Source: Deltaproteobacteria bacterium
GTDB lineage: Bacteria > Desulfobacterota > Binatia > UTPRO1
NCBI GenBank assembly: GCA_029262315.1
Contig: JAJCZP010000075.1
Span: 1 to 36,315 of the forward strand
Length of the DNA: 36,315 nt
Direction: 5' to 3'
Position numbers and translations under genes: made by a program. Position 1 is the first letter of the stretch. Each line of letters begins with the position of its first letter. Shown piece after piece: positions 11,989-36,036 of this stretch. Below the pieces are notes generated by a model. That model did not search any database. It was given only the letters and a program-made list of their open reading frames with translations, and had not been told where the DNA came from.

Positions 11989-13103
11989 CGACCAAGGCGC
12001 GCGCCATCGTACAAGAGGCTCCGCGTCGGCTCGCGTTGCGCGAGTTCCCGATCCCCGACGTCACCGCCGACAGCGCCATCCTACGCATCGAGGCCTGTGG
12101 CATCTGCGGCAGCGACGTCGAACAGTTCACCGGCACACTCCCCGTCCCCTTCCCCGTCGTACCGGGACACGAGCCCCTCGGCATCATCGACAAGATCGGC
12201 GATCAAGCCGCCGCACGCTGGGGAGTCGACATCGGCGACAGAGTCGCCGTCGAGACGCTGATACCCTGTGGCTACTGCCGCGCCTGTATCGGCGGTCGAT
12301 ATCACGTGTGCCGCGCCCGCGGCGGCCTGTTCGCGCACGGATACGTGCCAACCACGAACGGCCCCGGGCTCTGGGGCGCGTACGCCGACTACATGTACCT
12401 CGATCCGCACTCGATCGTGCACCGGATGCGGAAAGATCTGCCCGCGAACTTGGCGGTCATGTTCAACCCGCTCGGAGCTGGCTTCCGCTGGGCGGTCGAG
12501 ATTCCGCGGACGGGCCCCGGGGACATCGTCCTCATCCTCGGGCCGGGTCAACGCGGCCTCGCGAGCGTGATCGCCGCTCGTGCCGCGGGTGCCGACCAGA
12601 TCATCGTCACCGGCCTCACGAGCGATGCCGCCAAGCTCGCGCTCGCGCTCGAGTTCGGCGCCGATCATGTCATCGATGTCGAAACTGAGAACGCACGCAC
12701 GCGCGTGAAGGAACTCACCAATGGCCAGGGCGCAGACGTGGTCGTCGAGGTATCGTCGTACGCGACGACACCCATCGCCGAGGCGCTGCACTACGTGGCG
12801 ACCGGCGGCCGCATCGTGCTGGCCGGGGTAAAGGGCTTCAAGCCCGTCCCGGATTTCATCAGTGATCTCATCGTGGTGAAGGAAGCCACCGTCCTCGGAG
12901 CCTTTGGCGTCACGACCCGTGCCTATGACGCCGCGATCCGTCTCATCGAGTCCGGCACCGTCCCACTCGCACGCATGCATACACACGACTTCGCCCTCGA
13001 AGAGGCCGAGCTCGCCATCGAGACGCTCGCGGGCAACGCGCCGGGCGCTGCCAGCATTCATTCGTGCCTCCTCCCAGAACGCCTCACGACTCCAGCGACT
13101 TGA
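11985..13103 (+). CDS. Zinc-dependent medium-chain alcohol dehydrogenase
   Basis: The 372-aa protein is an MDR-family NAD(P)-dependent dehydrogenase. Catalytic zinc ligands are Cys41 (GICGSD) and His62-Glu63 (GHE); the structural zinc site is Cys95, Cys98, Cys101 and Cys109. The Rossmann motif is GPGQRG (GxGxxG type) near residue 185. The family oxidises alcohols or polyols, or reduces aldehydes; here an intermediate made by the diiron enzyme or ketosynthase is a possible substrate, but that is inference from position. Its ATG overlaps the stop of the preceding gene by four bases. The C-terminal 15 residues (LLPERLTTPAT) are low complexity. Confidence 0.88.
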   Translation: MTTKARAIVQEAPRRLALREFPIPDVTADSAILRIEACGICGSDVEQFTGTLPVPFPVVPGHEPLGIIDKIGDQAAARWGVDIGDRVAVETLIPCGYCRACIGGRYHVCRARGGLFAHGYVPTTNGPGLWGAYADYMYLDPHSIVHRMRKDLPANLAVMFNPLGAGFRWAVEIPRTGPGDIVLILGPGQRGLASVIAARAAGADQIIVTGLTSDAAKLALALEFGADHVIDVETENARTRVKELTNGQGADVVVEVSSYATTPIAEALHYVATGGRIVLAGVKGFKPVPDFISDLIVVKEATVLGAFGVTTRAYDAAIRLIESGTVPLARMHTHDFALEEAELAIETLAGNAPGAASIHSCLLPERLTTPAT

Positions 13104-13134
13104 CTCATGGACGCAGCACGGACACCGTCCCACC

Positions 13135-16100
13135 ATGCAGTGCGTCCAATGCAGCGCTGAGCTGATCGCCGGAAAGCAGTTCTGCCACGTCTGTGGCACT
13201 CGTGCCGGCGAGACGTGCCCACAATGCAATAGCATCGTGCAAGCGGGGTTCCGGTTCTGCCCCGAATGCGGCACACCGATTGACGCCGCCCCACCCCCTC
13301 CTTCAGCGCCCACGCTCGAGCATCGGCTCGCGGATATGAGCCGCCACATCCCTGATCGACTAGCGGAAAAGATTCGGGCCACGCAGAGCTTGGTCACCGG
13401 AGAGCGCAAGTTGGTCACGGTCATGTTCTGTGACCTCGTCGGGTCGACGGCGATCGCCGAAGGGCTCGACCCCGAGGAGTACCGCGACCTCCTCGAAGGT
13501 TATCTCGAGATCGTGTTCCGCGAGGTCTACGCCGTCGAGGGAGTGGTCAACCAACTCGCCGGCGACGGCGTCATGGCATTGTTCGGCGCACCGATCGCAC
13601 ACGAGGACGCGCCCTACCGGGCAGTCTATGCGGCGCTCGCGATCCGCGACGCGCTTCACGACATGAAGCGGCGCAAGGATGCGAAGGACCAACTCGATCT
13701 GCAGGTACGCATCGGCGTGCATACAGGACCCGTGGTGCTCGGCGGTGTCGGCAACGATCTCAAGATGGACTACACGGCCATCGGCGACACCACCAACCTC
13801 GCATCGCGGCTCCAGACTGCCGCCGAGCCGCGTATGGTGCTGATCAGCGAGGCGACCCAACGACTCGTCCGTGGGTTCTTCCGGATGGCGCCCGGACGGC
13901 GCCTCCAGGTCAAGGGCAAGAGCGATCCGGTCACCGCATTCGAAGTATGCGGGCTGAGTGACACGACCACCCCGATGGCGATCGCCGAAGCCCGTGGTCT
14001 GACGCCGTTGGTGGGTCGCGAGAACGAGCTTGCGCAACTCGCGGCGTGCTACGATCGTATCAAGGCAAACTTCACTCAGATCGTCGCCATCGGCGCCGAG
14101 GCGGGCAGCGGCAAATCGCGACTGCTCTACGAGTTCAGGCAGCGATTGGCCGACGAGCCGACGGTCATCCTCGAAGCTCGATGCTGGGCCATGACCCAGA
14201 ACGTGCCGCATGCACCCTGGATCAGCATGCTCCGCGACTACTTCGAGCTCGCCCCCGGCGAAGACCCCACCATCGCGTGCGCGAAGATCGATCGGAAACT
14301 CACTCCGCTGGGTGCCGGCGCCGCTGAAACGAAGGAGACACTTTGCAGGATGCTCTCGCTCGAGGCGGAGGACGCCGTGCAACACGAGCTCCCCGAGGAC
14401 GAGCGCAAGCGTCAGACCTTCGAAGCCGTCGGATTGCTGCTCGCGCTCATTGCCGGGCAGAACCCCCTGATCATCATCATCGAGGATCTACATTGGATGG
14501 ACGCACCGTCACGCGAGATGCTCGATCTCGCGGTCGGCACGATGTGCGACGGCGCCGAAATGGTGGTCATTACGCATCGCCCGGATCACCAACCATTCTG
14601 GCGTACGCGCGCGGCGTTCACCCAGATCAATCTCCTTCCGCTATCCGATGCCGAGATGGTCCAGATCATCCGCACCATCGCCGGCGGGCAGTTGCCGGAC
14701 GAACTCGAACGGGGGATCCTCGCCAAAGCAGAGGGTAACCCATTCTTCACCGAAGAGATCACCCGCGCGCTCGTGGAAGAAGGCTATCTCCTCCGGAGCG
14801 ACGGCCAGATCCGCGTCACACGCCCGCCCTCCGAAATGCGCCTTCCGGGCACGGTCGAAGAGGTCGTCGGTGCCCGTCTCGATCGCCTCGACCCGCCGGC
14901 CAAACGCACCGTTCAGGTCGCGTCGGTCCTGGGGCGCCAATTCCAGCGCGCGCAGCTCGAGACGACGCTCGCCGGCGAGAACATCGACGTCGCCGCGGCA
15001 CTCTCCCTCCTCGAAGAGCGTGGGATCATCCACCGGAAGGCGGTACTCACCAGTGACGAGTATCGCTTCGGGGAGAGCCTGACGCAGGACATCGCGTACG
15101 AGAGCCTTCTCCTGCGCCAACGCCGGGAACTCCATACGCGAATCGGCACGATGCTCGAGAGCATGCCGGGCGACTCCGTCGCGTCGCGCTCCGCCCTGAT
15201 CGCACATCATTTCTCCCGCACCGACGACCGCGCCAGGGGTCTCGCCGCACTGCTTCAGGCCGGCGCCGATGCCGAGGCGATCCCCGCGTTTCCCACGGCC
15301 GCCGGATTCTACGAGCAGGCGTGGGATTTCGCGCGGGAGATGCTGGCGACGGACGATACCAGCGATGCCACCGCGCGCCAGGCACTCGAAGCCGCGCGCG
15401 GCCTCACGCGCATGCTGGTGCTGTACGGGTGGTCCAACGATGCGTACGACCTTTCCGAGATCGGCCAGGAAGCGCGCACCTTGGCCGAGCGGCTTGCCGA
15501 CGACAATGCGCTCGTCACCGTCCTCACGCTCTGGGGTATGGGACTCACAAGTTCCGGACGCGAGCGCTACGACGAGGGTGTCGCTCTGATTCGGGAAGCC
15601 GACGAGGCAGCCCACCGGCTGCCCGATCCACTGGCGGCGATCCGTACCGGACGGGCGATCGCCTGGGCCGCCATGTTCGACGGGCAGTTCGACGAGGCCC
15701 GTCGACGGCTCGCAGACGCGGTGCAGGCCCTCGAGCGCCTCGATACAGATCAGGGCGCGGATATCTATCTGAGCGCGCTCTTCATCCGTGACCGCATTCG
15801 TCTCCACCACGACGATCTCACAACGCCGGAATCGAGTCAGCGGACGCTCGAGTTGGCTCGCGAGAAGGGCAATCGCACGGTCCAGGCTGCCTCGGCAACC
15901 ACACTCGCCATGATCGCCTTCTTTCGTGCCGACTATGCGCGGGCGCGTGAGCTGGCGGAACGGTCCCTCGCGATCGTCGAGAGCACCGGCAGCCTGGCAC
16001 AGGTCCGTGCCGTCGTGGCCGTCGCCATCCTGGCGCGGCGCGAACTCGGCGAATCGATGCTCCCGCGCCACACGGAGTTGCTCGAACGGGGACCGGTCGT

Positions 16101-16524
16101 CGGCGCCGAACCACTCTGGGCGCCGCTCATCATCGAAGCGTTCGCCGCCCTCGACAAGGGCGCCGGCGCCAAACGCTTTGTGATCGCGGCCTACAAAACC
16201 TCAGGAGGACGCCTCCGGGACGCCGCGGTTCTAGTGGCGACGGCCGATGCCTTGCGTACGCTCGGCGCAGCCCACGGCGTCGAAGTCGAATCGCGGTACA
16301 CACGCGCCCACGCACTTGCCGAGCCCCTGCACGCGCGCTCCCTGCTCGCCGCGATCGCCCACGGACGCGGCGCCCTTGCTGCCAGCCGCGGCGAGCCGGC
16401 GGCCGCGCTCGTACATTTCCAGGACGCCCGCGCGCGCTACGCCGCGCTGGGCTTTCAGCGATACGTCGACCGTGCCGACATTCTGATCGCGGCCCTTCCC
16501 GACGCTGTGCAAGAAACCGCCTGA
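13135..16524 (+). CDS. Zinc ribbon / class III nucleotidyl cyclase / AAA ATPase / helical-repeat signalling protein
   Basis: The 1129-aa protein has two zinc ribbons at residues 3-48 (CVQC..FCHVCG and TCPQC..FCPECG), then a class III cyclase domain (about 90-270). Metal aspartates are Asp100 (FCDLVGST) and Asp144 (AGDGVMALFGAP); the transition-state pair is Asn221 and Arg225 (DTTNLASRL). Residue 140, normally the purine-recognising Lys, is Gln, and the partner position is Thr214, a class IIIb feature. A NACHT/AAA-type ATPase follows (Walker A GAEAGSGKS with Lys327, Walker B LIIIIEDLHWMD), then about 500 residues of helical TPR-like repeats. The layout recalls half of mammalian soluble adenylyl cyclase. 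It is probably a cytoplasmic signal-controlled cyclase. It starts 31 bases after the dehydrogenase; GC is even with neighbours. Confidence 0.88.
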   Translation: MQCVQCSAELIAGKQFCHVCGTRAGETCPQCNSIVQAGFRFCPECGTPIDAAPPPPSAPTLEHRLADMSRHIPDRLAEKIRATQSLVTGERKLVTVMFCDLVGSTAIAEGLDPEEYRDLLEGYLEIVFREVYAVEGVVNQLAGDGVMALFGAPIAHEDAPYRAVYAALAIRDALHDMKRRKDAKDQLDLQVRIGVHTGPVVLGGVGNDLKMDYTAIGDTTNLASRLQTAAEPRMVLISEATQRLVRGFFRMAPGRRLQVKGKSDPVTAFEVCGLSDTTTPMAIAEARGLTPLVGRENELAQLAACYDRIKANFTQIVAIGAEAGSGKSRLLYEFRQRLADEPTVILEARCWAMTQNVPHAPWISMLRDYFELAPGEDPTIACAKIDRKLTPLGAGAAETKETLCRMLSLEAEDAVQHELPEDERKRQTFEAVGLLLALIAGQNPLIIIIEDLHWMDAPSREMLDLAVGTMCDGAEMVVITHRPDHQPFWRTRAAFTQINLLPLSDAEMVQIIRTIAGGQLPDELERGILAKAEGNPFFTEEITRALVEEGYLLRSDGQIRVTRPPSEMRLPGTVEEVVGARLDRLDPPAKRTVQVASVLGRQFQRAQLETTLAGENIDVAAALSLLEERGIIHRKAVLTSDEYRFGESLTQDIAYESLLLRQRRELHTRIGTMLESMPGDSVASRSALIAHHFSRTDDRARGLAALLQAGADAEAIPAFPTAAGFYEQAWDFAREMLATDDTSDATARQALEAARGLTRMLVLYGWSNDAYDLSEIGQEARTLAERLADDNALVTVLTLWGMGLTSSGRERYDEGVALIREADEAAHRLPDPLAAIRTGRAIAWAAMFDGQFDEARRRLADAVQALERLDTDQGADIYLSALFIRDRIRLHHDDLTTPESSQRTLELAREKGNRTVQAASATTLAMIAFFRADYARARELAERSLAIVESTGSLAQVRAVVAVAILARRELGESMLPRHTELLERGPVVGAEPLWAPLIIEAFAALDKGAGAKRFVIAAYKTSGGRLRDAAVLVATADALRTLGAAHGVEVESRYTRAHALAEPLHARSLLAAIAHGRGALAASRGEPAAALVHFQDARARYAALGFQRYVDRADILIAALPDAVQETA

Positions 16525-25867: not shown

Positions 25868-25938
25868 TGGATTGCAGGAACCTCTCAGTCCATAGCATGC
25901 TCGCTCGCGACCATGCCAGCAAGCCGAGACGGGAAAGC

Positions 25939-26559
25939 ATGAAAGGCAGCAACGACACCACGCACACGAGCGCGATCATCCTCACTGGGGGTCGCTCGCA
26001 ACGGATGGGGCGGCCGAAAGCCTGGCTGGACCTGGGCGGCGAGCCCGCCCTGCGGCGCCTGGCCGACATCGTGCGGCCGCTGACCAGCGAGATCGTCCTG
26101 GTTGCGGCGGCCGACCAGGATCTCCCCCCCATCGACGCCCGCGTCGTCCATGACCGCCACCCCGAGCTCGGCCCCCTGCCGGCGCTTGCGCTCGGACTCG
26201 AGTCCGTCCGCAGCTCGCACGCCTTGGTGCTGGCATGCGACATGCCACTCGTTCGTCCGGCCGTCCTCGTCTGGCTCGACCAAGAGTGCCGCCGGCGCAA
26301 GGCCACCGCCGTCATCCCCGTATGGAACGATGTGGCCCAGCCGCTGGTTGCCGTCTACGACCGTCAGATCGCCGACACCCTCATGGCGCTCGTTGCGGAC
26401 GGCGAGCGCCGCCTGCAATCCCTGCGGACCCTCGAGGGGGTGCATCTGGCGTCCTCCGAGGAGATGGCAGCGCTCGATCCCGAGGGGGTCAGCTTCCACA
26501 CCATGAACACCCCTGAAGAGTACGCCACGATCCGTAATCGGTGGTCCGGTACACCCTGA
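25939..26559 (+). CDS. mobA: Molybdenum cofactor guanylyltransferase (MobA-like)
   Basis: The 206-aa nucleotidyltransferase links GMP to molybdopterin to give the MGD cofactor used by DMSO reductase-family enzymes. The N-terminal signature LTGGRSQRMGRPKA (15-28) is present, as are the central ACDMPLV metal-binding motif and a Rossmann-like fold. The frame is open from 25897, but the ATG at 25939 with GGGA upstream is preferred because the family starts there. It leads a unit with fdhD and the molybdopterin oxidoreductase, which need this cofactor. The gene is divergent from the SRP RNA gene. Confidence 0.9.
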   Translation: MKGSNDTTHTSAIILTGGRSQRMGRPKAWLDLGGEPALRRLADIVRPLTSEIVLVAAADQDLPPIDARVVHDRHPELGPLPALALGLESVRSSHALVLACDMPLVRPAVLVWLDQECRRRKATAVIPVWNDVAQPLVAVYDRQIADTLMALVADGERRLQSLRTLEGVHLASSEEMAALDPEGVSFHTMNTPEEYATIRNRWSGTP

Positions 26560-26607
26560 CGGCGCTCGAGTGGCCGATCGTCGGGCGCGTTGGTATCATC
26601 CGTATCG

Positions 26608-27741
26608 ATGGGTGATCCGACGATCGTCCGCGAGCCGCACGGGGCCCCAGCGGCGTCCCTCGAACTCGTACGTGCACGGGCGGGCGGCGTCAGCCGGAGC
26701 ACGGACGACATCGCCGTCGAGGAGCCCCTCGAGATTCGGCTGAACGGTTGGCGCTGGCTCGTCACCATGCGCACCCCAGGAAACGATGCCGATCTGATCC
26801 TTGGCCTGCTCGCAAGCGAAACCGTCATCGCCAAGGCCGATGATGTCGAATCCATCCTCTTCCGCCGCCACCCGGACGAACCCGATCTCGCCAACGTCGC
26901 CGATGTACAACTGCGCCAGCCTCTCGGTGACCTGCAACAACGCCTCGCACGCAACCAGACGCTCGCCTCGTCGAGTTGCGGACTGTGTGGCGCAAGCGCG
27001 ATCGAGGCCATCCGCCACCGAACCGCGAGCATTCCGCCAGGGCCGGCCATCGCCGCAACGGCGATCGCCGCCCTTCCCGATCAGCTGCACCGCGCCCAAC
27101 CCGGCTTTCAGGCGACCGGTGGCCTCCACGCGGCCGCGCTCTTCGACACCTCTGGCGGCTTCCTGGTCGCCCGCGAGGACATCGGCCGCCACAACGCTAC
27201 CGACAAAGTGCTTGGATGGCGCCTGCGGAACGAACGAACCGGTGCGGCGGCTTCCATCCTTTTGGTCAGCGGCCGCGCGAGCTTCGAAATCGTACAAAAG
27301 GCGCTCGGCGCGAGCATACCGCTCGTCACTGCCGTCTCCGCCCCGTCGACGCTAGCCGTCGAACTGGCCCAGGCCAGCAACATGACGCTGGTGGGATTCC
27401 TACGCGGACGCAGCATGAACGTCTACGCGGGATCGGAGCGCGTCACGGATCTGGAGCAACTCGGCGCCAGCCTCGCCGAGCCGGATTCCGATGCCGCACT
27501 GGCGGCCGCCGCGGTCGAGTTGATCCCCCGGGCGATGCGCTCGATGCTCGATGCCGTCGCACTCAAGGTTTCGCTCACAGATTGGCAGGCGTTGACCGTC
27601 GGCGAGCGCACGCGGTTGCTGGCACTCGTCGCAGAGAACGGTCCGGAAGAATTCGCGCGCTACCTCCACGATCGCACGGTCGCCCGTACCGGACGTGCGC
27701 CGCGCCCCCTCCGCCCACGTCCGGAGACCCCGACCTCGTGA
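26608..27741 (+). CDS. fdhD: FdhD sulfurtransferase with extra C-terminal nitrate reductase-associated-like domain
   Basis: The 377-aa protein has a FdhD core (about 20-283) with VEEPLEIRLNG, the catalytic pair Cys124-x-x-Cys127 in SCGLCG, REDIGRHNATDKVLG and SGRASFEIVQK. FdhD moves sulfur from IscS to the Mo-cofactor of formate dehydrogenases. Family length is about 260-280 aa; here about 90 residues are added. Residues 307-352 (IPRAMRSMLD ... LKVSLTDWQALTVGERTRLL) resemble nitrate reductase-associated protein (TIGR02664 type), normally a separate small protein. The ATG at 26608 lacks a ribosome binding site; a TATCAT hexamer at 26594-26599 suggests a leaderless message. Its stop overlaps the next gene's GTG by four bases (GTGA). 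Confidence 0.9.
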   Translation: MGDPTIVREPHGAPAASLELVRARAGGVSRSTDDIAVEEPLEIRLNGWRWLVTMRTPGNDADLILGLLASETVIAKADDVESILFRRHPDEPDLANVADVQLRQPLGDLQQRLARNQTLASSSCGLCGASAIEAIRHRTASIPPGPAIAATAIAALPDQLHRAQPGFQATGGLHAAALFDTSGGFLVAREDIGRHNATDKVLGWRLRNERTGAAASILLVSGRASFEIVQKALGASIPLVTAVSAPSTLAVELAQASNMTLVGFLRGRSMNVYAGSERVTDLEQLGASLAEPDSDAALAAAAVELIPRAMRSMLDAVALKVSLTDWQALTVGERTRLLALVAENGPEEFARYLHDRTVARTGRAPRPLRPRPETPTS

Positions 27742-29939
27742 GCCGACGTCATTCCGCCATCCCCTTCGGTCTCGGATCCGCCAAGCCCCATCACTACCGC
27801 GACATGCTCCGCATCGCGTGGCAGAACCGCGATCAGCTGCCCTACGCATGGCGCATCCTCCGGGATGGGGTCTGCGACGGCTGTGCGCTCGGACCGCGAG
27901 GTCTTCGAGACGACGTCATCGACGGTGTCCACCTGTGCATGACCCGCCTCGAACTGCTCCGGCTGAACACCATGCCCGCGCTCGACCCGGCAGTCCTCGG
28001 CGACGTCGCACGCCTGCGCCGGATGACGAGCGCTGAACTGCGGGCGCTGGGCCGTCTCCCATTTCCGATGCTCCTGGAGCGTGGGGCCTCCGCGTTCCGC
28101 CGGCTCTCCTGGGAGGAGGCGGAAACGCTCGCCGCTGCGCGACTTGCGGACGCCCCGCCAGATCGACTGGCGTTCTTTACGACCTCACGCGGCCTCACCA
28201 ACGAGGTTTACTATGTGGCGCAGAAGTTGGCGCGGGCCCTCGATTCCAATCACATCGACAACGACGCCCGCCTCTGCCACGCCGCGAGCACGACGGCGAT
28301 GAAACGATCGCTCGGAGTTGGCGCGGCAACCTGCTCACTCCGCGACTGGATCGGCACGGACCTGCTCGTGATCTGGGGGAGCGATCTCGCCAACAATCAA
28401 CCAGTCAGCACCAAGTATCTGCACTACGCCCGTGAAGCGGGCACGCGCATCGTGGTGATCAATCCCTATCGCGAGCCTGGGCTCGAGCGCTACTGGGTCC
28501 CGTCGGTCGCCAAGAGCGCCGTCTTCGGCACGCCGCTGATGGACGAGTTCTTCCAGGTGGCCATCGGCGGTGACCGGGCATTTGCCAACGGCGTGCTGAA
28601 GGAGCTGATCGAGCGGGATGCGGTCGACCACGCGTTCATCGAACAGCACACCGCAGGCTTCGATGCGCTCAAGACCGCGGTCTCGACACAATCGTGGCCC
28701 GAGCTCGAAGCGGCGGCTGGCGTCCCCCGGAGCGAAATGGCCCGTTTCGCCACGCTCTACGCCGGTGCGCGCTCGGCGATCTTCGTCTGGAGCATGGGCC
28801 TCACCCAACACCGATTCGGCGTCGACAACGTCGCGTCAGCCGTGAATCTCGCCCTCGCCCGGGGCATGCTCGGAAAGCCCCATACGGGGCTGATGCCGAT
28901 TCGCGGCCACAGTGGGGTGCAGGGCGCCGCGGAGTGCGGCAGTGTCCCGACGGTTCTCCCAGGCGGCGACCCCATCGACGACCCGACGGCGCGCACACGA
29001 TGCGAGGAGGCCTGGGGATTCGCACCCCCGACCGCTGCCGGAATGATGACGAGCGCGATGCTCGACGCGGCCCATGCTGGACGTCTCGACGCATTCTACC
29101 TGATCGGCGGCAATTTCCTGGAAACCATGCCCGATCCAGATCATTGCCGTGAAGCGCTCGCGCGCGTCCCCTTCCGCGTGCATCAAGACATCATGCTGAA
29201 CACCTCGACGTTGGTGGAAACCGATGAGGTGCTCGTCCTCCCCGGAGCCACGCGCTACGAGCAAACGGGCGGCGGCACGACCACCACGACCGAGCGCCGC
29301 ATTCGATTCACGCCCGAGGTGCCGGGACCGCGGATCGCGGAGGCCCGTTCCGAGTGGGAGATCCTGGCCGCCATCGGTCAACGCGCGCTCCACGGCCGCC
29401 GCGCCGAGGGCTTCGCCTTTCGCGACGGCCAGGCCGTCCGGGACGAGATGGACCGCGTGATGCCACTCTATCGCGGCATCAAAGACCTCCGACGCGCCGG
29501 CGATTCCTTTCAGTACGGCGGACCGCTGTTGTGTCGAGACGGCGTCTGCCCCGATCTCCCTGGGGGCCGCGCACGCTTTACGGCCGTCGTGCCCGAAGCT
29601 CCCTCAGTCCGTCCTGACGAGTTCGTCGTGACCACCCGGCGCGGAAAGCAGTTCAACTCAATCACACTAGCGAGCGCAGACGCGCTCACCGGTACATCCA
29701 GCCGAGACGCGGTTTTCATCGCGGCGAGCGACGCCCGGAAACTCGGACTGTCCGAAGGATCCTCGATCACGCTCGAATCCCCCTACGGACGCTTCGACGG
29801 CCGCTGCCGGATCGTACCCGTGCGCGCCGGATCGCTGCAGGTGTACTGGCCCGAGGGCAATGTCCTGATCGGCCGGCAGCTCGACCCCGAAAGCGGGGAG
29901 CCGGACTACAATGCCGTGGTACGCATAAAAAAGAATTGA
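27738..29939 (+). CDS. Molybdopterin oxidoreductase, FdhF/YdeP-type alpha subunit
   Basis: The 733-aa protein belongs to the FDH-like family of DMSO reductase-type enzymes. It has an N-terminal CDGCALGPRGLRD segment (Cys46, Cys49, with Cys67) rather than the full four-Cys 4Fe-4S loop. Cys180-His181 (ARLCHAAST) occupies the place of Sec140-His141 in E. coli FdhF, so it uses cysteine as Mo ligand. Later motifs include GSDLANNQP, MGLTQHRFGVDNV, RGHSGVQGAAECG and a C-terminal molydopterin-binding domain. No electron-transfer subunit is adjacent. Start is the GTG at 27738, overlapping the fdhD stop; the frame is open far upstream only as a shadow of fdhD. Formate as substrate is plausible but unproven. 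Confidence 0.88.
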   Translation: MSRRHSAIPFGLGSAKPHHYRDMLRIAWQNRDQLPYAWRILRDGVCDGCALGPRGLRDDVIDGVHLCMTRLELLRLNTMPALDPAVLGDVARLRRMTSAELRALGRLPFPMLLERGASAFRRLSWEEAETLAAARLADAPPDRLAFFTTSRGLTNEVYYVAQKLARALDSNHIDNDARLCHAASTTAMKRSLGVGAATCSLRDWIGTDLLVIWGSDLANNQPVSTKYLHYAREAGTRIVVINPYREPGLERYWVPSVAKSAVFGTPLMDEFFQVAIGGDRAFANGVLKELIERDAVDHAFIEQHTAGFDALKTAVSTQSWPELEAAAGVPRSEMARFATLYAGARSAIFVWSMGLTQHRFGVDNVASAVNLALARGMLGKPHTGLMPIRGHSGVQGAAECGSVPTVLPGGDPIDDPTARTRCEEAWGFAPPTAAGMMTSAMLDAAHAGRLDAFYLIGGNFLETMPDPDHCREALARVPFRVHQDIMLNTSTLVETDEVLVLPGATRYEQTGGGTTTTTERRIRFTPEVPGPRIAEARSEWEILAAIGQRALHGRRAEGFAFRDGQAVRDEMDRVMPLYRGIKDLRRAGDSFQYGGPLLCRDGVCPDLPGGRARFTAVVPEAPSVRPDEFVVTTRRGKQFNSITLASADALTGTSSRDAVFIAASDARKLGLSEGSSITLESPYGRFDGRCRIVPVRAGSLQVYWPEGNVLIGRQLDPESGEPDYNAVVRIKKN

Positions 29940-29996
29940 ACCGCCCAGCCCCCTCCCGCGTATTACCGGTACAACACCTTGACGGGAGGAGATTTC

Positions 29997-30446
29997 ATGG
30001 ACGAGAGACGACGATGCCCCTACTGCGCCGAGACGATTCGGGCGGAAGCCACCCTGTGCCGGTACTGCCGCAGCAGACTTGGGGATTTCGATCCCGAGCG
30101 CTGGCATCGCGACCACCCAGAACGACGCGTCGCTGGCGTCACCGCCGCGCTCGCCCATGCTCTGGCCTTGCCCATGGGCGCCGTACGGCTGGCCTTCATC
30201 GTCCTGACCTTCTTCCACCTGCTAGGACCGTCCCTATACGCCGCCCTGTGGCTGCTGATCCCGTTCAGTCCCGGCGGTGAAGCGCCGTTCGGGAGGCTAC
30301 TGGCCCGTCTCCGCGGGATCGTTGGCGCGTTCGTAGGCCCGATGCACGTCCAGGCGACAGGCGGCGGAAGCCCCGGCGGACACGGCGAGGGACCAGTCGG
30401 TGGGTCACCGTTGGCACCAGACGTACCGCCAAGACCGCGCACATGA
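29997..30446 (+). CDS. Zinc ribbon-PspC domain membrane protein (first copy)
   Basis: The 149-aa protein has a C4 zinc ribbon (Cys7, Cys10, Cys21, Cys24: CPYCAETIRAEATLCRYC) and then a PspC domain (about 47-92: RRVAGVTAALAHALALPMGAVRLAFIVLT ... LYAALWLLIPF) with membrane helices. A Gly/Pro-rich tail (about 118-149) follows. PspC proteins act in envelope stress sensing. The ATG at 29997 follows GGAGGA at a good distance. The gene is followed by a sigma factor (gap 6 bases) and by a second gene of the same architecture. Confidence 0.8.
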   Translation: MDERRRCPYCAETIRAEATLCRYCRSRLGDFDPERWHRDHPERRVAGVTAALAHALALPMGAVRLAFIVLTFFHLLGPSLYAALWLLIPFSPGGEAPFGRLLARLRGIVGAFVGPMHVQATGGGSPGGHGEGPVGGSPLAPDVPPRPRT

Positions 30447-30452
30447 TAGACC

Positions 30453-30995
30453 ATGTCGCGGGCGCCAATGGCGACCGACGAAGACTTGATGCGAGCGGTC
30501 GCGGCGGGCAACGGCGATGCGCTCGAGAGACTCTGCCACCGCTACGAGCGGCCGCTCTACCAGTTTCTCGTCCGCCACATTGGAGACAGTGATGCGGAAG
30601 ATCTCCACCAGGAAACCTGGCTGCGCGTGGTGCGCCATGCTCCACGCTTCGATCCGAACCGCAGATTCTCGACGTGGCTGTTCCAGATCGCGGTCAATCT
30701 GTGCCGCGATTGGCATCGACGGCCGCCGCCCATGCCGATCGATCCAGAGATCGCCGATCGTGCGGAGCGAGACACGAGCGAGGCGGCGAGTGCGACCATC
30801 GATCTCGAGCGCCTACTACGCGCGCTACCGGAGCCGCAACGTGCGGTCGTCCTGCTGCGTCTCTACCATGACTTCAGCGAAGAGGACGCCGCGGAAATCC
30901 TCAATTGCGCACGCGGTACGGTCAAGAGTCGACTGCACTACGCCCTCGAGCGCCTGGCACGGACAGTGAAAACCGAGGATACCCACAGCCAATGA
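30453..30995 (+). CDS. ECF-family RNA polymerase sigma factor
   Basis: The 180-aa protein has sigma region 2 (about 22-90: LCHRYERPLYQFLVRH, DLHQETWLRVVRHAPRF, FSTWLFQIAVNLCRDW) and region 4 (about 120-170: LLRALPEPQRAVVLLRLYHDFSEEDAAEIL ... GTVKSRLHYALERL). Regions 1 and 3 are missing, as in ECF sigmas. Start is the ATG at 30453; an ATG at 30468 is also possible, and neither has a good ribosome binding site. The next gene overlaps it by four bases (ATGA) and looks like its anti-sigma factor. Confidence 0.92.
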   Translation: MSRAPMATDEDLMRAVAAGNGDALERLCHRYERPLYQFLVRHIGDSDAEDLHQETWLRVVRHAPRFDPNRRFSTWLFQIAVNLCRDWHRRPPPMPIDPEIADRAERDTSEAASATIDLERLLRALPEPQRAVVLLRLYHDFSEEDAAEILNCARGTVKSRLHYALERLARTVKTEDTHSQ

Positions 30996-31480
30996 CGCAC
31001 GACGCCGATCGCGCCTGCACCGCGCTGCGCCTGGCCACCCTCCGGGGAGGAGTTCTCGACGCTCGTGCCACCGAGCACCTCGCAGGGTGCCGCCGCTGCG
31101 CTCATGAGCACGAGGGATTGCATGCACTCGGCGGACGGTTGCGCATGCTTGCGCCGGAACCTCCCACCTCGCTGATGAGGCGGACCCTCGACACCGCGGC
31201 ACCCGCACTCGCGATCAATGCCGGCCATGTGGCCTGGCGGCCGCTCGTGCGCGCGATCGGCGCGGCACTCCTGCCGCTACCCGCGATCGTCATCACGAGC
31301 GCGTACGCGCTCCGCGCGCTGTATGGACTGCTGGCCACGGTGCTCCCCGAGACCCTGAGTCTCTATTTGGTGCTGAACTATGCCGGGCTGCTCGCCCTAT
31401 GCGCGGCCCTCACGTACGGGGCCGTTCCGCTACTGGCGGCGCGGCAGGCACGGCTGACACACGAGGTCGCCCATGGATGA
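30992..31480 (+). CDS. Zinc-binding anti-sigma-like membrane protein
   Basis: The 162-aa product has a ZAS-type anti-sigma finger at its N-terminus: Cys9, then His29-x3-Cys33-x2-Cys36 (TEHLAGCRRC). Two or more membrane helices follow (about 89-118 and 121-148), and the C-terminus is basic. It therefore fits a membrane-bound anti-sigma factor that holds the neighbouring ECF sigma factor. The overlap ATGA with the sigma gene supports co-translation. The 8-base overlap with the next gene (31473) ties it to the second PspC protein. Confidence 0.8.
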   Translation: MTHDADRACTALRLATLRGGVLDARATEHLAGCRRCAHEHEGLHALGGRLRMLAPEPPTSLMRRTLDTAAPALAINAGHVAWRPLVRAIGAALLPLPAIVITSAYALRALYGLLATVLPETLSLYLVLNYAGLLALCAALTYGAVPLLAARQARLTHEVAHG

Positions 31481-31829
31481 TCTGCTGACCGAACCATCAT
31501 CGAATCCGACACCAAAGCAGTGTCCGTACTGCGCCGAAGAGATCAAGGCCGAAGCCATCAAGTGCCGCTACTGCGGCAGTACGGTGGGGGCTCACACGGC
31601 CCTCACCCGCACGTGGCATCGCACGCGCGAGGGCCGGATGGTCGCTGGAGTCTGCGCGGGCCTGGCCGGCGAGTTCGGGGTCTCGGTGAGTGTCGTCCGC
31701 CTGGCCTTTCTCCTCGCGGTCCTGATCGGCTGGGGGATGGGGCTCGTGCTCTATCTCGCACTCTGGGTCATCATGCCGTACCGCGAGCCACCGCCCGGAA
31801 GCCCGGCCCCCCGCATCCCGGCCGATTAG
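31473..31829 (+). CDS. Zinc ribbon-PspC domain membrane protein (second copy)
   Basis: The 118-aa protein has the same layout as the gene at 29997: C4 zinc ribbon (Cys17, Cys20, Cys31, Cys34: CPYCAEEIKAEAIKCRYC), then a PspC domain (about 50-103: GRMVAGVCAGLAGEFGVSVSVVRLAFLLAV) with a hydrophobic helix and the family ending ALWVIMPY. It is shorter than the first copy and lacks the long tail. The first eight bases overlap the anti-sigma-like gene, so it is part of the same unit. Confidence 0.85.
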   Translation: MDDLLTEPSSNPTPKQCPYCAEEIKAEAIKCRYCGSTVGAHTALTRTWHRTREGRMVAGVCAGLAGEFGVSVSVVRLAFLLAVLIGWGMGLVLYLALWVIMPYREPPPGSPAPRIPAD

Positions 31830-31901: not shown

Positions 31902-32582
31902 ATGGCAACCGCGTGCGCACCAGCTCCTGACGCCCCCACCCCCGACCGCTTGCTCGCCGCCGCAGCGACTCTCTTCGCCAGTCAGGGCTTTCAAGGCACG
32001 TCGATTCGCGACATCGCCGAACTCGCCAATGCCAACGTGGCATCCGGCCACTACCATTACGGCTCCAAGAAAGGCCTCTACGTCGAGGTCTTGCGATCCC
32101 ACTTCAAAGAGATTCGCGCGCGGCTGGCGGCGCCTGGTCTGCGCACCACGCCGCTCGCGCTGCGGCGATCTTCGCGGCGGAAGCTGACAGCATTGCTCGA
32201 GGCGCGCATCGCCGCGATCCTCGACGTACTCATCGGCCCACCGGCCTCACCGTACGGCGCACTGGTACAGCGCGAGATGGTCGACCCCACCGGGGCGCTT
32301 CCGATAATCGTCGATGAGTTCATTCGACCACAGCAAAAGGAAATGGAGCGGCTCCTCGCCGCGCTGGCGCCACACCTCGAGCGGGAGGCGCTGCAGCTGA
32401 CCACCTTCAGCGTGTTCGGTCAGGTCCTGTTCTATCGCTTCAACATGCCGGCGGTTCTGCTGCTCCTGAACCGCACCAGCTATCCGCGTGGGTTCAACCG
32501 CAAGATCGCTCGCCACATCGCGAGCCTGTCCCTTGCGGGGGTTCTGAACCAGCAGAAGGGACGAAAGGCCGCTGCCACGTAA
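31902..32582 (+). CDS. CecR-like TetR family regulator
   Basis: The 226-aa protein has an N-terminal TetR helix-turn-helix (about 16-62: RLLAAAATLFASQGFQGTSIRDIAELANAN ... HYHYGSKKGLY) and a C-terminal domain resembling that of E. coli CecR (YbiH), seen in GALVQREMVDPTGALPIIVDEF. CecR controls the ybhGFSR efflux operon in E. coli. Here the gene is followed by TolC-, YbhG- and YbhF-like genes, the same group, so it most likely represses them. Its own promoter carries a matching palindrome. Confidence 0.88.
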   Translation: MATACAPAPDAPTPDRLLAAAATLFASQGFQGTSIRDIAELANANVASGHYHYGSKKGLYVEVLRSHFKEIRARLAAPGLRTTPLALRRSSRRKLTALLEARIAAILDVLIGPPASPYGALVQREMVDPTGALPIIVDEFIRPQQKEMERLLAALAPHLEREALQLTTFSVFGQVLFYRFNMPAVLLLLNRTSYPRGFNRKIARHIASLSLAGVLNQQKGRKAAAT

Positions 32583-32601
32583 CCTCAGCACGGCGCTCCA
32601 G

Positions 32602-34032
32602 ATGACGTCACTGCTCCTGACGGTCGTCTCGTGCAGCCCACTGACGGCGCTCACTCATCCGGAGGGGACCGGGGGCTGGGATCCGAGCGAGCGTCAGCAC
32701 GCGCTCGCCGAGCACGCCAAGGCCGCTGGGGTCGACGTGACCCCAGACCTCGACCCGGCCGTCCCTCTCGATACCCCTCTCGACCTGGCACGCGCGTTGG
32801 AGCTGGCGACACACGGCAACCGACCCCTCGCCGAAGCACGCCAGCAGCTCGCCATCGCGCGCCAGCACGTATTCGACATCCGAGGCCGCTTGCTCCCGGC
32901 GACGACCGGAAGCGGTCGATTCACCTGGTACACCGACTCGCTCACCAACAGCATTCCGCAAATCGGCGACCTGGCGGAAACCGGGCGCGCCTTCGAGGTC
33001 CGGGACGGCGACGTTGGCTCGCTCCACGGCACTCTCACCCTGCCAATCGACCTCAGCGGGGAACTCGGCTACGCGCTCGCTGCCGCCCAAGCGGGTTATC
33101 GCGGCGAAGCCGCCCGGCTGTGGGGCACCAAGCTCGCACAGGACGTGGTCGTTATCGGCGCCTACTTCACGCTGCTGGAAGCCGAGCGCCTACGCGAGGT
33201 CACGCTCCAGACCATCGCCGTGCAACGCCAGCAGCACGCCAACGCCGAACGGCGGTTCGACCGCGGACGACTCACCAAGAACGAACTGCTCGTGGTGCAG
33301 GTGGGACTGAGCAACGCCGAGCAGGAGCTTCTGCAGCGCGAGCTCGCGATCGACCACGCGCGCTGGGCACTCAACGGCGCCATCGGGCAACCCATCGACG
33401 CCGCGACCGGCGTGGTCGACATCCGCACACGCCCACTCCTTCCCGACCTCCACGAAACGCTCGAGACCGCGTACGCGCACAACCCAGCCCTCGTGGCGCT
33501 CCTCGAAGAGCAACAGCGTTGGCGTGCCACGGCGACCGAACTGGCACGCGGACGCTTCCCGCGCGTCGCGGCCGGCGCCGCCATCGACTATTCGAGCGCC
33601 AACACCATCGACCCGACCACGGTCGGCTCCGGCTTCGTCGGGTTCGAGTGGGATCTCGGCACAGACGGGCGACGCGAGGCGCGGATCGCCGCGGCGCGGA
33701 TCGAGGTTGAACGCAACAGCACCCGGCTCGAGCGAGAGCTTCGGCAGATCGAGCGCGTCGTCCGCACCATCCATCGCCGTATCGAGGAGCGTCTCGCCGC
33801 ACTCGACACGGCCGAAATCGCCGTCGGCCAGGCCGAAGAGAATCTGCGCATTCGTCAGCAGCAATTCGATGTCGGGCGCGCGACCAGCGAAGACGTGCTC
33901 GACGCCGAAGCCCTCCTCGCTGGCCAGCGGGCCACGCTGGCCAGTGCCCTGTATCAGGCGCAAACACGCCGCGCCGAACTGCAACAACTCATGGGTCGGC
34001 CGCTCGATGCCCTAGTCGCCGACGGAAGGTAG
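32602..34032 (+). CDS. TolC-family outer membrane efflux lipoprotein
   Basis: The 476-aa protein belongs to the outer membrane factor family: long helical segments, PLDLARALELATHGNRPLAEA near residue 59, LARGRFPRVAAGAAIDYSS, and a C-terminal ATSEDVLDAEALLAGQ ... ALYQAQTRRAELQQLMG repeat. A short N-terminus MTSLLLTVVSC with a VVSC lipobox (Cys11) suggests a lipoprotein, but the n-region has no positive charge, so this is tentative. It would form the exit duct for the HlyD/ABC exporter. It starts 19 bases after the regulator gene; E. coli ybhGFSR has no TolC gene in the operon. Confidence 0.85.
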   Translation: MTSLLLTVVSCSPLTALTHPEGTGGWDPSERQHALAEHAKAAGVDVTPDLDPAVPLDTPLDLARALELATHGNRPLAEARQQLAIARQHVFDIRGRLLPATTGSGRFTWYTDSLTNSIPQIGDLAETGRAFEVRDGDVGSLHGTLTLPIDLSGELGYALAAAQAGYRGEAARLWGTKLAQDVVVIGAYFTLLEAERLREVTLQTIAVQRQQHANAERRFDRGRLTKNELLVVQVGLSNAEQELLQRELAIDHARWALNGAIGQPIDAATGVVDIRTRPLLPDLHETLETAYAHNPALVALLEEQQRWRATATELARGRFPRVAAGAAIDYSSANTIDPTTVGSGFVGFEWDLGTDGRREARIAAARIEVERNSTRLERELRQIERVVRTIHRRIEERLAALDTAEIAVGQAEENLRIRQQQFDVGRATSEDVLDAEALLAGQRATLASALYQAQTRRAELQQLMGRPLDALVADGR

Positions 34033-34042
34033 GCCCCTAGCG

Positions 34043-35089
34043 ATGCCACGCCGCGTTCTCATTGCCTGTCTCGTTCTGATTGGTGCCGCGCTTGCCATCT
34101 GGCTCGCCCTCGGCACTGACGCTCCCGTCCACTACACGGGTTTCGTCGAAGGCGAGGAACGCATCCTTCGAAGCGAGGTCACCGGTCGCGTCGTCAGCGT
34201 CAACTTTGGCGAAGGCGACCTTGTCCCAGCCGGCGCGGTGGTTGCGCAGCTTGCCGACGAAGACATCCGCAGCACCGTCGCGTCGAAAGAACAGCAGATC
34301 GCCGTCCAGAGTGCGCAAATCCGCCGCCAACAGGAGCAAGTACAGCTCCTCGAGAACACGCTGCGCGAGGCCGTCAGCGCGCGCAAGGCCGAGCTGGCAC
34401 AAGCTGAGTCGGCCGCCCGATTGGCGACCAGCAGCTTCGGCCGCGAGCAGTCACTGGTGACCAGCGGCGCTAGCACGGCTCAGCTTCTCGATGAGGCGCG
34501 TACGACCAGAGACCAGTCGCGCAGCGCCGTCGCCCGCGCGCAGAATCTTCTGACCGAGGCCACCGCACGCGAGGGCCAGGTCACTGTAGCGCGCCATCAG
34601 CTCGAGGTACTACGCGAGCAGGAGAAACTCACACGCGCTGAATTGGCTCAGCTCCACGTCACGCGCGCGAAATATGCCATCGTCGCGCCCGCCGTCGACA
34701 CGACGGTGCAAACGCAGTTCCTCTGGCCGGGCGAGCTGGCGCAGCCAGGCTCGGCCCTGCTGTCCGTCCTCGATCCGGAGGACAAACACGTCCAGATCTA
34801 TCTTCCCGTCGCCGACCTCGCGGAGGCGAAGGTGGGCCGACACGTCGAGATCGAGCTCGACAGTGCGCCGGGCCGACGTGTGCCCGGCGTGATCGCCTTC
34901 GTCGCCGACGAGGCGACCTTCACACCGGAGAAGATCGAGACGCGAAACGATCGACTCGGCCAGGTCTATCGCGCCAAAGTGCGCATCCTCGAAGACGTCG
35001 CGCAGTTCAAGCCCGGCACCGAGGGCAACGTCTACCTTGCGAGCGCACCGGACGATTCCGCCGAGCAGCACGCCCGTGAGGCTCGATGA
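34043..35089 (+). CDS. HlyD/YbhG-like periplasmic adaptor protein
   Basis: The 348-aa membrane fusion protein has an N-terminal membrane anchor (about 5-24), a first biotinyl-lipoyl half (YTGFVEGEERILRSEVTGRVVSVNFGEGDLVPAG region), a coiled-coil hairpin (about 70-200, many Gln, Glu and Arg residues), the second lipoyl half (YAIVAPAVDTTVQTQFLWPGEL) and a beta-barrel domain (KHVQIYLPVADLAEAKVG). It connects the inner-membrane ABC exporter to the TolC-like duct. It overlaps the next gene by four bases (ATGA). YbhG, its E. coli relative, also pairs with YbhF. Confidence 0.92.
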   Translation: MPRRVLIACLVLIGAALAIWLALGTDAPVHYTGFVEGEERILRSEVTGRVVSVNFGEGDLVPAGAVVAQLADEDIRSTVASKEQQIAVQSAQIRRQQEQVQLLENTLREAVSARKAELAQAESAARLATSSFGREQSLVTSGASTAQLLDEARTTRDQSRSAVARAQNLLTEATAREGQVTVARHQLEVLREQEKLTRAELAQLHVTRAKYAIVAPAVDTTVQTQFLWPGELAQPGSALLSVLDPEDKHVQIYLPVADLAEAKVGRHVEIELDSAPGRRVPGVIAFVADEATFTPEKIETRNDRLGQVYRAKVRILEDVAQFKPGTEGNVYLASAPDDSAEQHAREAR

Positions 35090-36036
35090 GCGGAGCGCAA
35101 GAGCGCACGGAGCCCGTCGTCCGCCTACGAGGCCTTCACAAGCGCTTTCACGAGTGCCTGGCACTCGCGGACCTCGATCTGGAGCTGCGAGGCGCACAGA
35201 TTGTCGGCGTCGTCGGCCCGGACGGAGCGGGCAAGACGACCCTCATCCGCACTCTTGCGGGCCTTCTCGAAATCGAGGCGACGGAGGCCGAGGTCCTCGG
35301 CCACGATCTTCGCGGCGATGTCCGCCCGCTCAAGCGCGAGCTCGGCTATGTCCCACAGGCGTTCAGCTTGCACCGCGAACTCTCGGTTGCGGAGAATCTC
35401 CGCTTCACCGCGCGCCTCCACCACATTCCGACCGCGACCTTCGCCGAGCGTGCCGGGCGGTTGCTCGAGCGCACAAGCCTCCGTCCGTTCGCCGATCGTC
35501 CCGCGGGAGCGCTGTCGGGGGGAATGAAACAGAAACTTGCGATCATCAACGCCCTCCTCCCCGAGCCGCGACTGCTGCTGCTCGACGAACCGACCGCGGG
35601 GGTCGACGTCGTCGCGCGCGCCGAGATCTGGAACATGCTCGCCGAGAGACGCAACGACATGATGATCGTGATCAGCACGAGCTACCTCGACGAGACAGCC
35701 GCCTGCGAGCGCCTGGTCTACCTCGATGGCGGCCGTCTCGTCGCGGATGGCACACCGGCGGAACTCCGCGCCAGTGTCGACCTCGAACTGTACCGTGCCT
35801 GGGGCCCCGATTGCCGCGGTATTGCGCGGCGCGCTCGGCGCCTGGAGTACGTTGCGTCGAGTCATGCGTCCGGCGTCTCCACTCGCATCGAGGTACGTCG
35901 CAGCCACTCGCCCGGACCAACTCACGTGCTGCGGGACCTCGCCGCCCTGCGAGGGGCCGGGGTCACGATGGTGGAGGAGCTACCGGTCGACATGGAGGCC
36001 ACGCTGCTCGCGCTCGCTCGACGATCGATACCATGA
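35086..36036 (+). CDS. ABC transporter ATPase, first half of a YbhF-like pair
   Basis: The 316-aa protein has Walker A GPDGAGKT (44-51), Q-loop Gln91, signature LSGGMKQ (143-149) and Walker B LLLLDEPT with Glu168. The H-loop His is replaced by Ser199 (STSYLDE), so this site may hydrolyse ATP poorly. The Walker A spelling GPDGAGKT resembles the N-terminal ATPase of E. coli YbhF. About 90 C-terminal residues follow the ATPase core. Its stop overlaps the ATG of the second ATPase (ATGA), so the two are co-translated and probably form a heterodimer. Confidence 0.92.
   Translation: MSGAQERTEPVVRLRGLHKRFHECLALADLDLELRGAQIVGVVGPDGAGKTTLIRTLAGLLEIEATEAEVLGHDLRGDVRPLKRELGYVPQAFSLHRELSVAENLRFTARLHHIPTATFAERAGRLLERTSLRPFADRPAGALSGGMKQKLAIINALLPEPRLLLLDEPTAGVDVVARAEIWNMLAERRNDMMIVISTSYLDETAACERLVYLDGGRLVADGTPAELRASVDLELYRAWGPDCRGIARRARRLEYVASSHASGVSTRIEVRRSHSPGPTHVLRDLAALRGAGVTMVEELPVDMEATLLALARRSIP

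Follow-up and report, generated by a model that had tools for sequence, protein, structure and literature searches.

An operon joining an ECF sigma factor, a putative anti-sigma factor and two zinc ribbon-PspC proteins in Binatia and Myxococcota

Genes and junctions of the locus

The window, i.e., the whole analyzed stretch of 36,315 nucleotides, carries at positions 29997-31829 four genes on one strand with coupled frames: pspC1, an ECF sigma factor gene, a gene for a ZAS-like putative anti-sigma factor with two transmembrane (TM) helices, and pspC2 (Table 1). Thus, the order of four overlapping or abutting genes described in an earlier note on this DNA was confirmed. Upstream on the same strand lie a MobA-like gene, fdhD and a gene for a formate dehydrogenase-like molybdopterin oxidoreductase (25897-29939). 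An efflux cluster (CecR-type TetR regulator, outer membrane efflux protein, HlyD-type protein and ABC ATPase; 31902-36033) follows directly downstream on this strand after an intergenic gap of its own. Elsewhere in the window, positions 12919-16521 encode a 1201-aa protein that combines a double zinc ribbon, an adenylate/guanylate cyclase, an AAA_16 ATPase and TPR segments.

Table 1. Predicted features of the operon (window positions).
Feature	Position	Strand	Remarks
ECF-type promoter motif TGAACC-N16-CGTATTAC (GAAC-N17-CGTA)	29937..29966	+	predicted from sequence motif and conservation
pspC1: zinc ribbon (CxxC-x10-CxxC) and PspC domain, predicted membrane protein	29997..30446	+	149 aa; PF04024 E=8.5e-13; 'CRSR' subtype
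ECF sigma factor	30468..30995	+	175 aa (180 aa with start 30453); Sigma70_r2, r4_2
Putative anti-sigma factor	30992..31480	+	162 aa; N-terminal, ZAS-like domain on the cytoplasmic side with H-x3-C-x2-C, two TM helices, without periplasmic domain
pspC2: zinc ribbon (CxxC-x10-CxxC, KCRYCGS subtype) and PspC domain, predicted membrane protein	31473..31829	+	118 aa; PF04024 E=1.3e-18

The second protein showed the Pfam domains Sigma70_r2 (PF04542, 4.6e-18) and r4_2 (PF08281, 3.6e-15) and scored 92.5 bits against TIGR02937 (cutoff 42.9), i.e., it has the sigma2 and sigma4 domains that define ECF (group IV) sigma factors. Depending on its start codon, the gap to pspC1 measures 6 nt (start 30453) or 21 nt (start 30468). 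Since the 21-nt spacing recurs in 8/9 operons of the families f1 and f8, start 30468 is most likely. The sigma factor and anti-sigma genes overlap by 4 nt, and the anti-sigma gene and pspC2 by 8 nt, a pattern that 10 of the 16 operons compared first show again; the junctions of the Myxococcota operons are mostly -1/-4/-4 nt. An overlap of 4-8 nt between the anti-sigma and pspC2 frames was present almost everywhere, which indicates that pspC2 is translationally coupled to the anti-sigma gene. Because the frames are coupled, the whole operon would be read as a single transcript.

Both PspC proteins of the window exceeded the threshold of the PspC superfamily (PF04024, >25 bits) with 48.3 and 67.0 bits, and both stayed below that of the canonical PspC equivalog TIGR02978 (>104 bits) with 21.3 and 47.4 bits. 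They are encoded by the sole PspC-domain genes of the source genome and share the ribbon spacing CxxC-x10-CxxC, as had been noticed before. This ribbon was invariant in all 87 compared PspC1 and PspC2 proteins. In the phylogenetic tree, PspC1 and PspC2 formed two separate clades (support 99/100), each with members from Binatia and Myxococcota. In the sigma factor tree, the four-gene form of Binatia, the four-gene form of Myxococcota and the three-gene form of Myxococcota, which lacks pspC1, fell apart. The simplest reading of these trees is one old duplication, with pspC1 lost in one branch. An AlphaFold2 (AF2) model of PspC2 (pLDDT 60) was set aside.

The third protein carries the N-terminal ZAS motif as H29-x3-C33-x2-C36 and, judged by hydrophobicity, two hydrophobic helices. 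Its AF2 model (pLDDT 81) is all-helical with two long C-terminal helices. Profiles from a structure database matched weakly, with ChrR first (E=0.018), followed by RskA (0.061) and RsiW (0.064). The curated Pfam search of this protein yielded no family, a Pfam scan of nine homologs gave one weak zf-HC2 match, and Foldseek with the AF2 model returned nothing significant, the best anti-sigma match being RseA (E=5.6). Among 52 homologs, H-x3-C-x2-C was present in 34 and absent in 18 as called, some of these perhaps being start-site miscalls. The motif is gone in family f11 and in many three-gene Myxococcota that retain the operon, and both TM helices were kept in the inspected homologs. In family f11 (loci L035, L039, L049, L164 and L165), the third gene has a TM region without HxxxCxxC, and operon and promoter are intact. 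Based on its position, frame coupling, motif, the weak profile matches and the all-helical model, the third gene very probably encodes an anti-sigma factor. Like ChrR, RsiW and RskA, it combines the HxxxCxxC motif with a gene adjoining that of the sigma factor; unlike them, it has neither a periplasmic nor a cupin sensor domain, its similarity to them is weak, and the motif is lost in some lineages.

Predicted promoter of the operon

The earlier note had proposed mapping a sigma-dependent promoter upstream of position 29997, and such a motif was found (Table 1), its TGA being at the same time the stop codon of the upstream oxidoreductase gene. GAAC-N16/17-CGTA precedes the first gene in 52/52 distinct operons (24 from Binatia, 28 from Myxococcota), with a spacer of 17 nearly always. 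As a control, shuffled 133-nt upstream regions carried the motif in 0.56%. By sequence motif, all 52 operons thus have the GAAC -35 element expected of an autoregulatory promoter of ECF (group IV) sigma factors. A CGTA -10 element is also carried by sigmaW promoters. The motif and its conservation suggest that it is the ECF-type autoregulatory promoter of the operon.

In Binatia, the motif has the extended form TGAACC-N16-CGTAYYAC, for which the 5.9-Mb source genome contains one perfect match, namely that of the operon itself. Across 50 Binatia genomes, the extended motif was perfect at the operon in 18 of the 24 operon genomes, one perfect match lay at a relic locus, and only 3 others lay off-locus. 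Since the extended promoter occurs nowhere else in the source genome, the PspC pair is probably the principal output of the circuit. The looser core GAACC-N16-CGTA gave 38 matches as compared to 20 for a reversed control; when 30 of these matches were examined, nearly all apart from the operon fell within coding sequence. Thus, a wide sigma regulon sharing the extended promoter found no support. A larger set of genes may be controlled through looser or weaker variants of the promoter, which the patterns used here would not distinguish from noise.

Distribution, PspA and natural deletions

Among 148 genomes of Binatia, the class of the source organism within a little-studied phylum, a sigma factor ortholog was present in 24 (224-310 bits; next paralogs at most 121 bits), and a tandem pair of PspC domains about 1.3-1.5 kb apart was present in exactly the same 24 genomes (24/24 versus 0/124; Fisher p ~4e-28, without phylogeny correction). 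These genomes represent nine families, with gene order and coupled junctions constant throughout. In a sample of 284 Myxococcota genomes, 27 possess a sigma factor ortholog, which was followed in 27/27 by the anti-sigma gene and pspC2; pspC1 precedes it in 11/27, and the three-gene form is common. The conserved gene order that had been suggested as a check was therefore recovered, and the pair of sigma and anti-sigma genes without PspC, named beforehand as the refuting case, occurred in 0 of the 51 genomes with an ortholog. In Acidobacteriota, the closest sigma factor relatives reached only 134-154 bits. The sigma factors scored best in 39 genomes, and in the 20 loci of these that were examined no PspC gene adjoined the sigma gene; on this basis, the unit was rejected for this phylum. 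Conserved extra operon genes were not found, and no flanking gene family recurs across the Binatia families. By these sequence comparisons, the four-gene arrangement looks like a real, conserved unit in two phyla.

The absence of PspA and PspB, noted at first for the locus, holds genome-wide: neither PspA (PF04012) nor PspB (PF06667) had a match in the source genome, which is 99.96% complete. The operon itself contains no pspF gene. Strong PspA was found in 0/24 operon genomes as compared to 27 genomes without the operon (Fisher p 0.008, without phylogeny correction), and the PspA-like matches seen in some of the operon genomes are weak, distant and located away from the operon. In the families f5 and f12, a single PspC of another type without ribbon adjoins strong PspA, and their loci L052-L057 represent a canonical-looking psp locus within Binatia. 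Since the absence of strong PspA follows family lines, it may reflect ancestry instead of replacement.

Close relatives with an internal deletion of the operon (relic loci L047, G004:C37:128000-136900; L048, G002; L050, G005) were also analyzed. G004 and G002, which belong to the family of the source organism, share the flanks of the operon (fdhD and oxidoreductase; tetR and outer-membrane efflux gene), the upstream oxidoreductase (frame from 27804) serving only as a synteny marker, and lack pspC1, the sigma factor gene and the N-terminal domain of the anti-sigma factor. G004 retains a two-TM anti-sigma remnant in frame, preceded by a perfect promoter; only scraps of the anti-sigma gene are left in G002 and G005. 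In all three genomes pspC2 was kept, and G035 possesses a lone pspC2. Where sigma was lost, the dN/dS of pspC2 amounted to 0.22-0.31, as compared to 0.23 between two operon-bearing genomes. These values indicate that pspC2 is under purifying selection in relatives without the sigma factor. Since pspC2 persists after sigma loss, it serves a purpose without sigma, which favors an effector role.

Circuit model and known systems

In the explanation that we favor, with a probability of roughly 60%, the four genes form a self-contained circuit in which the ECF sigma factor activates its own operon, and the zinc ribbon-PspC pair encoded there is the main product. In the resting state, the anti-sigma factor with its two TM helices would tether sigma at the inner membrane via its ZAS-like domain. 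Membrane stress would release sigma and, because the anti-sigma factor has no periplasmic sensor domain, would be perceived in or at the membrane. Freed sigma would then recognize GAAC-N17-CGTA before pspC1, where motif and conservation are observed and binding is assumed, and would transcribe the entire operon as one transcript. The result would be more sigma as positive feedback, co-made anti-sigma factor as a brake and a surge in PspC1 and PspC2; these two proteins may stabilize the inner membrane without PspA. In this way, the operon would stand in for the PspA-PspC system of other Binatia families. The self-contained circuit proposed in the earlier note survives in part: it stands as a conserved, PspA-free unit with its own promoter; however, pspC1 is dispensable, as the three-gene Myxococcota show, and pspC2 outlives sigma. 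The membrane PspC proteins had been proposed to report to or modulate the sigma/anti-sigma pair through their cytoplasmic zinc ribbons; a role as output agrees with the data no less well than this reporter role.

As a second, less probable reading, PspC may itself be a regulator, since the anti-sigma factor has no periplasmic part and is co-translated with pspC2. Co-translated PspC2, with PspC1 where present, might bind the TM bundle or the ZAS domain of the anti-sigma factor via the cytoplasmic ribbons and free sigma under membrane stress. The overlap of the anti-sigma and pspC2 frames is typical of partners, pspC2 stands beside every sigma ortholog checked, the ribbon is invariant, and PspC of E. 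coli has a regulatory role. However, the anti-sigma zinc motif is absent in several homologs, and pspC2 was maintained in the three relatives without sigma, pspC1 and the anti-sigma domain, as well as alone in G035. We regard PspC as sensor or co-regulator as rather unlikely. Equally tentative is the suggestion that the zinc ribbon-PspC proteins act as an integral regulator in addition to being the output, with PspC2 in complex with the sensorless two-TM anti-sigma factor acting as the ECF stress sensor. If PspC senses for sigma, Psp proteins would replace the proteolysis of anti-sigma factors with periplasmic sensors, and ECF sensing would gain a new class.

A cytoplasmic signal, i.e., zinc or redox sensed by the ZAS-like domain and the ribbons as in RsrA and ChrR, with the TM helices as mere anchors, would agree with ChrR as the top profile match and with the motif in 34/52 anti-sigma factors; it is improbable, as whole lineages that keep the operon have lost the motif and the inspected homologs retain the two TM helices. 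A coincidental neighborhood of PspC genes unrelated to the sigma pair would be in line with the persistence of pspC2 without sigma, and was rejected as having next to no probability because of the co-occurrence in 24/24 Binatia and 27/27 Myxococcota genomes, the coupled frames and the one promoter conserved in two phyla.

The preferred circuit, with PspC as output, resembles sigmaW/RsiW of B. subtilis, which likewise comprises an ECF sigma factor and a ZAS-type membrane anti-sigma factor, is autoregulated and targets a phage-shock protein; here, these features are deduced from sequence. The gene pspA belongs to the sigmaW regulon, which includes 89 strictly dependent genes (PMC3498285). Unlike B. 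subtilis pspA, which lies outside the sigW operon, the PspC target lies inside the operon described here, in a genome without PspA and without further targets detected by the extended motif. In common with the proteobacterial Psp system (PspF, PspA, PspB and PspC), in which it is made under membrane stress, the operon has a PspC-domain membrane protein. It differs by the lack of PspA and PspB, by an ECF sigma factor whose gene belongs to the operon and which takes the position of sigma54/PspF, and by a duplicated PspC with an N-terminal zinc ribbon.

The zinc ribbon-PspC fusion was named by Ravi et al. 2024 with ABC83427.1 as an example, and PspA-free contexts were also named there, including a sigma factor linked to Toastrack/DUF2089 (PMC11237479). 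The domain fusion is the same as here; the main text of that paper names no operon of sigma, anti-sigma and zinc ribbon-PspC genes (PMC11237479). Thus, PspA under control of an ECF sigma factor (PMC3498285) and zinc ribbon-PspC fusions (PMC11237479) are already known. No paper describing an operon that joins sigma factor, anti-sigma factor and zinc ribbon-PspC was found in the literature searched, which covered few subscription papers or supplements and did not include the ECF classification; within this scope, the operon appears to be new.

ECF sigma factors and Psp proteins, usually thought of as separate envelope-stress systems, appear linked here in one minimal operon, which has a readable promoter, occurs in two phyla and apparently takes the place of PspA. 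The operon may therefore serve as a small, testable model for the action of PspC without PspA and for the control of an anti-sigma factor without a periplasmic domain.
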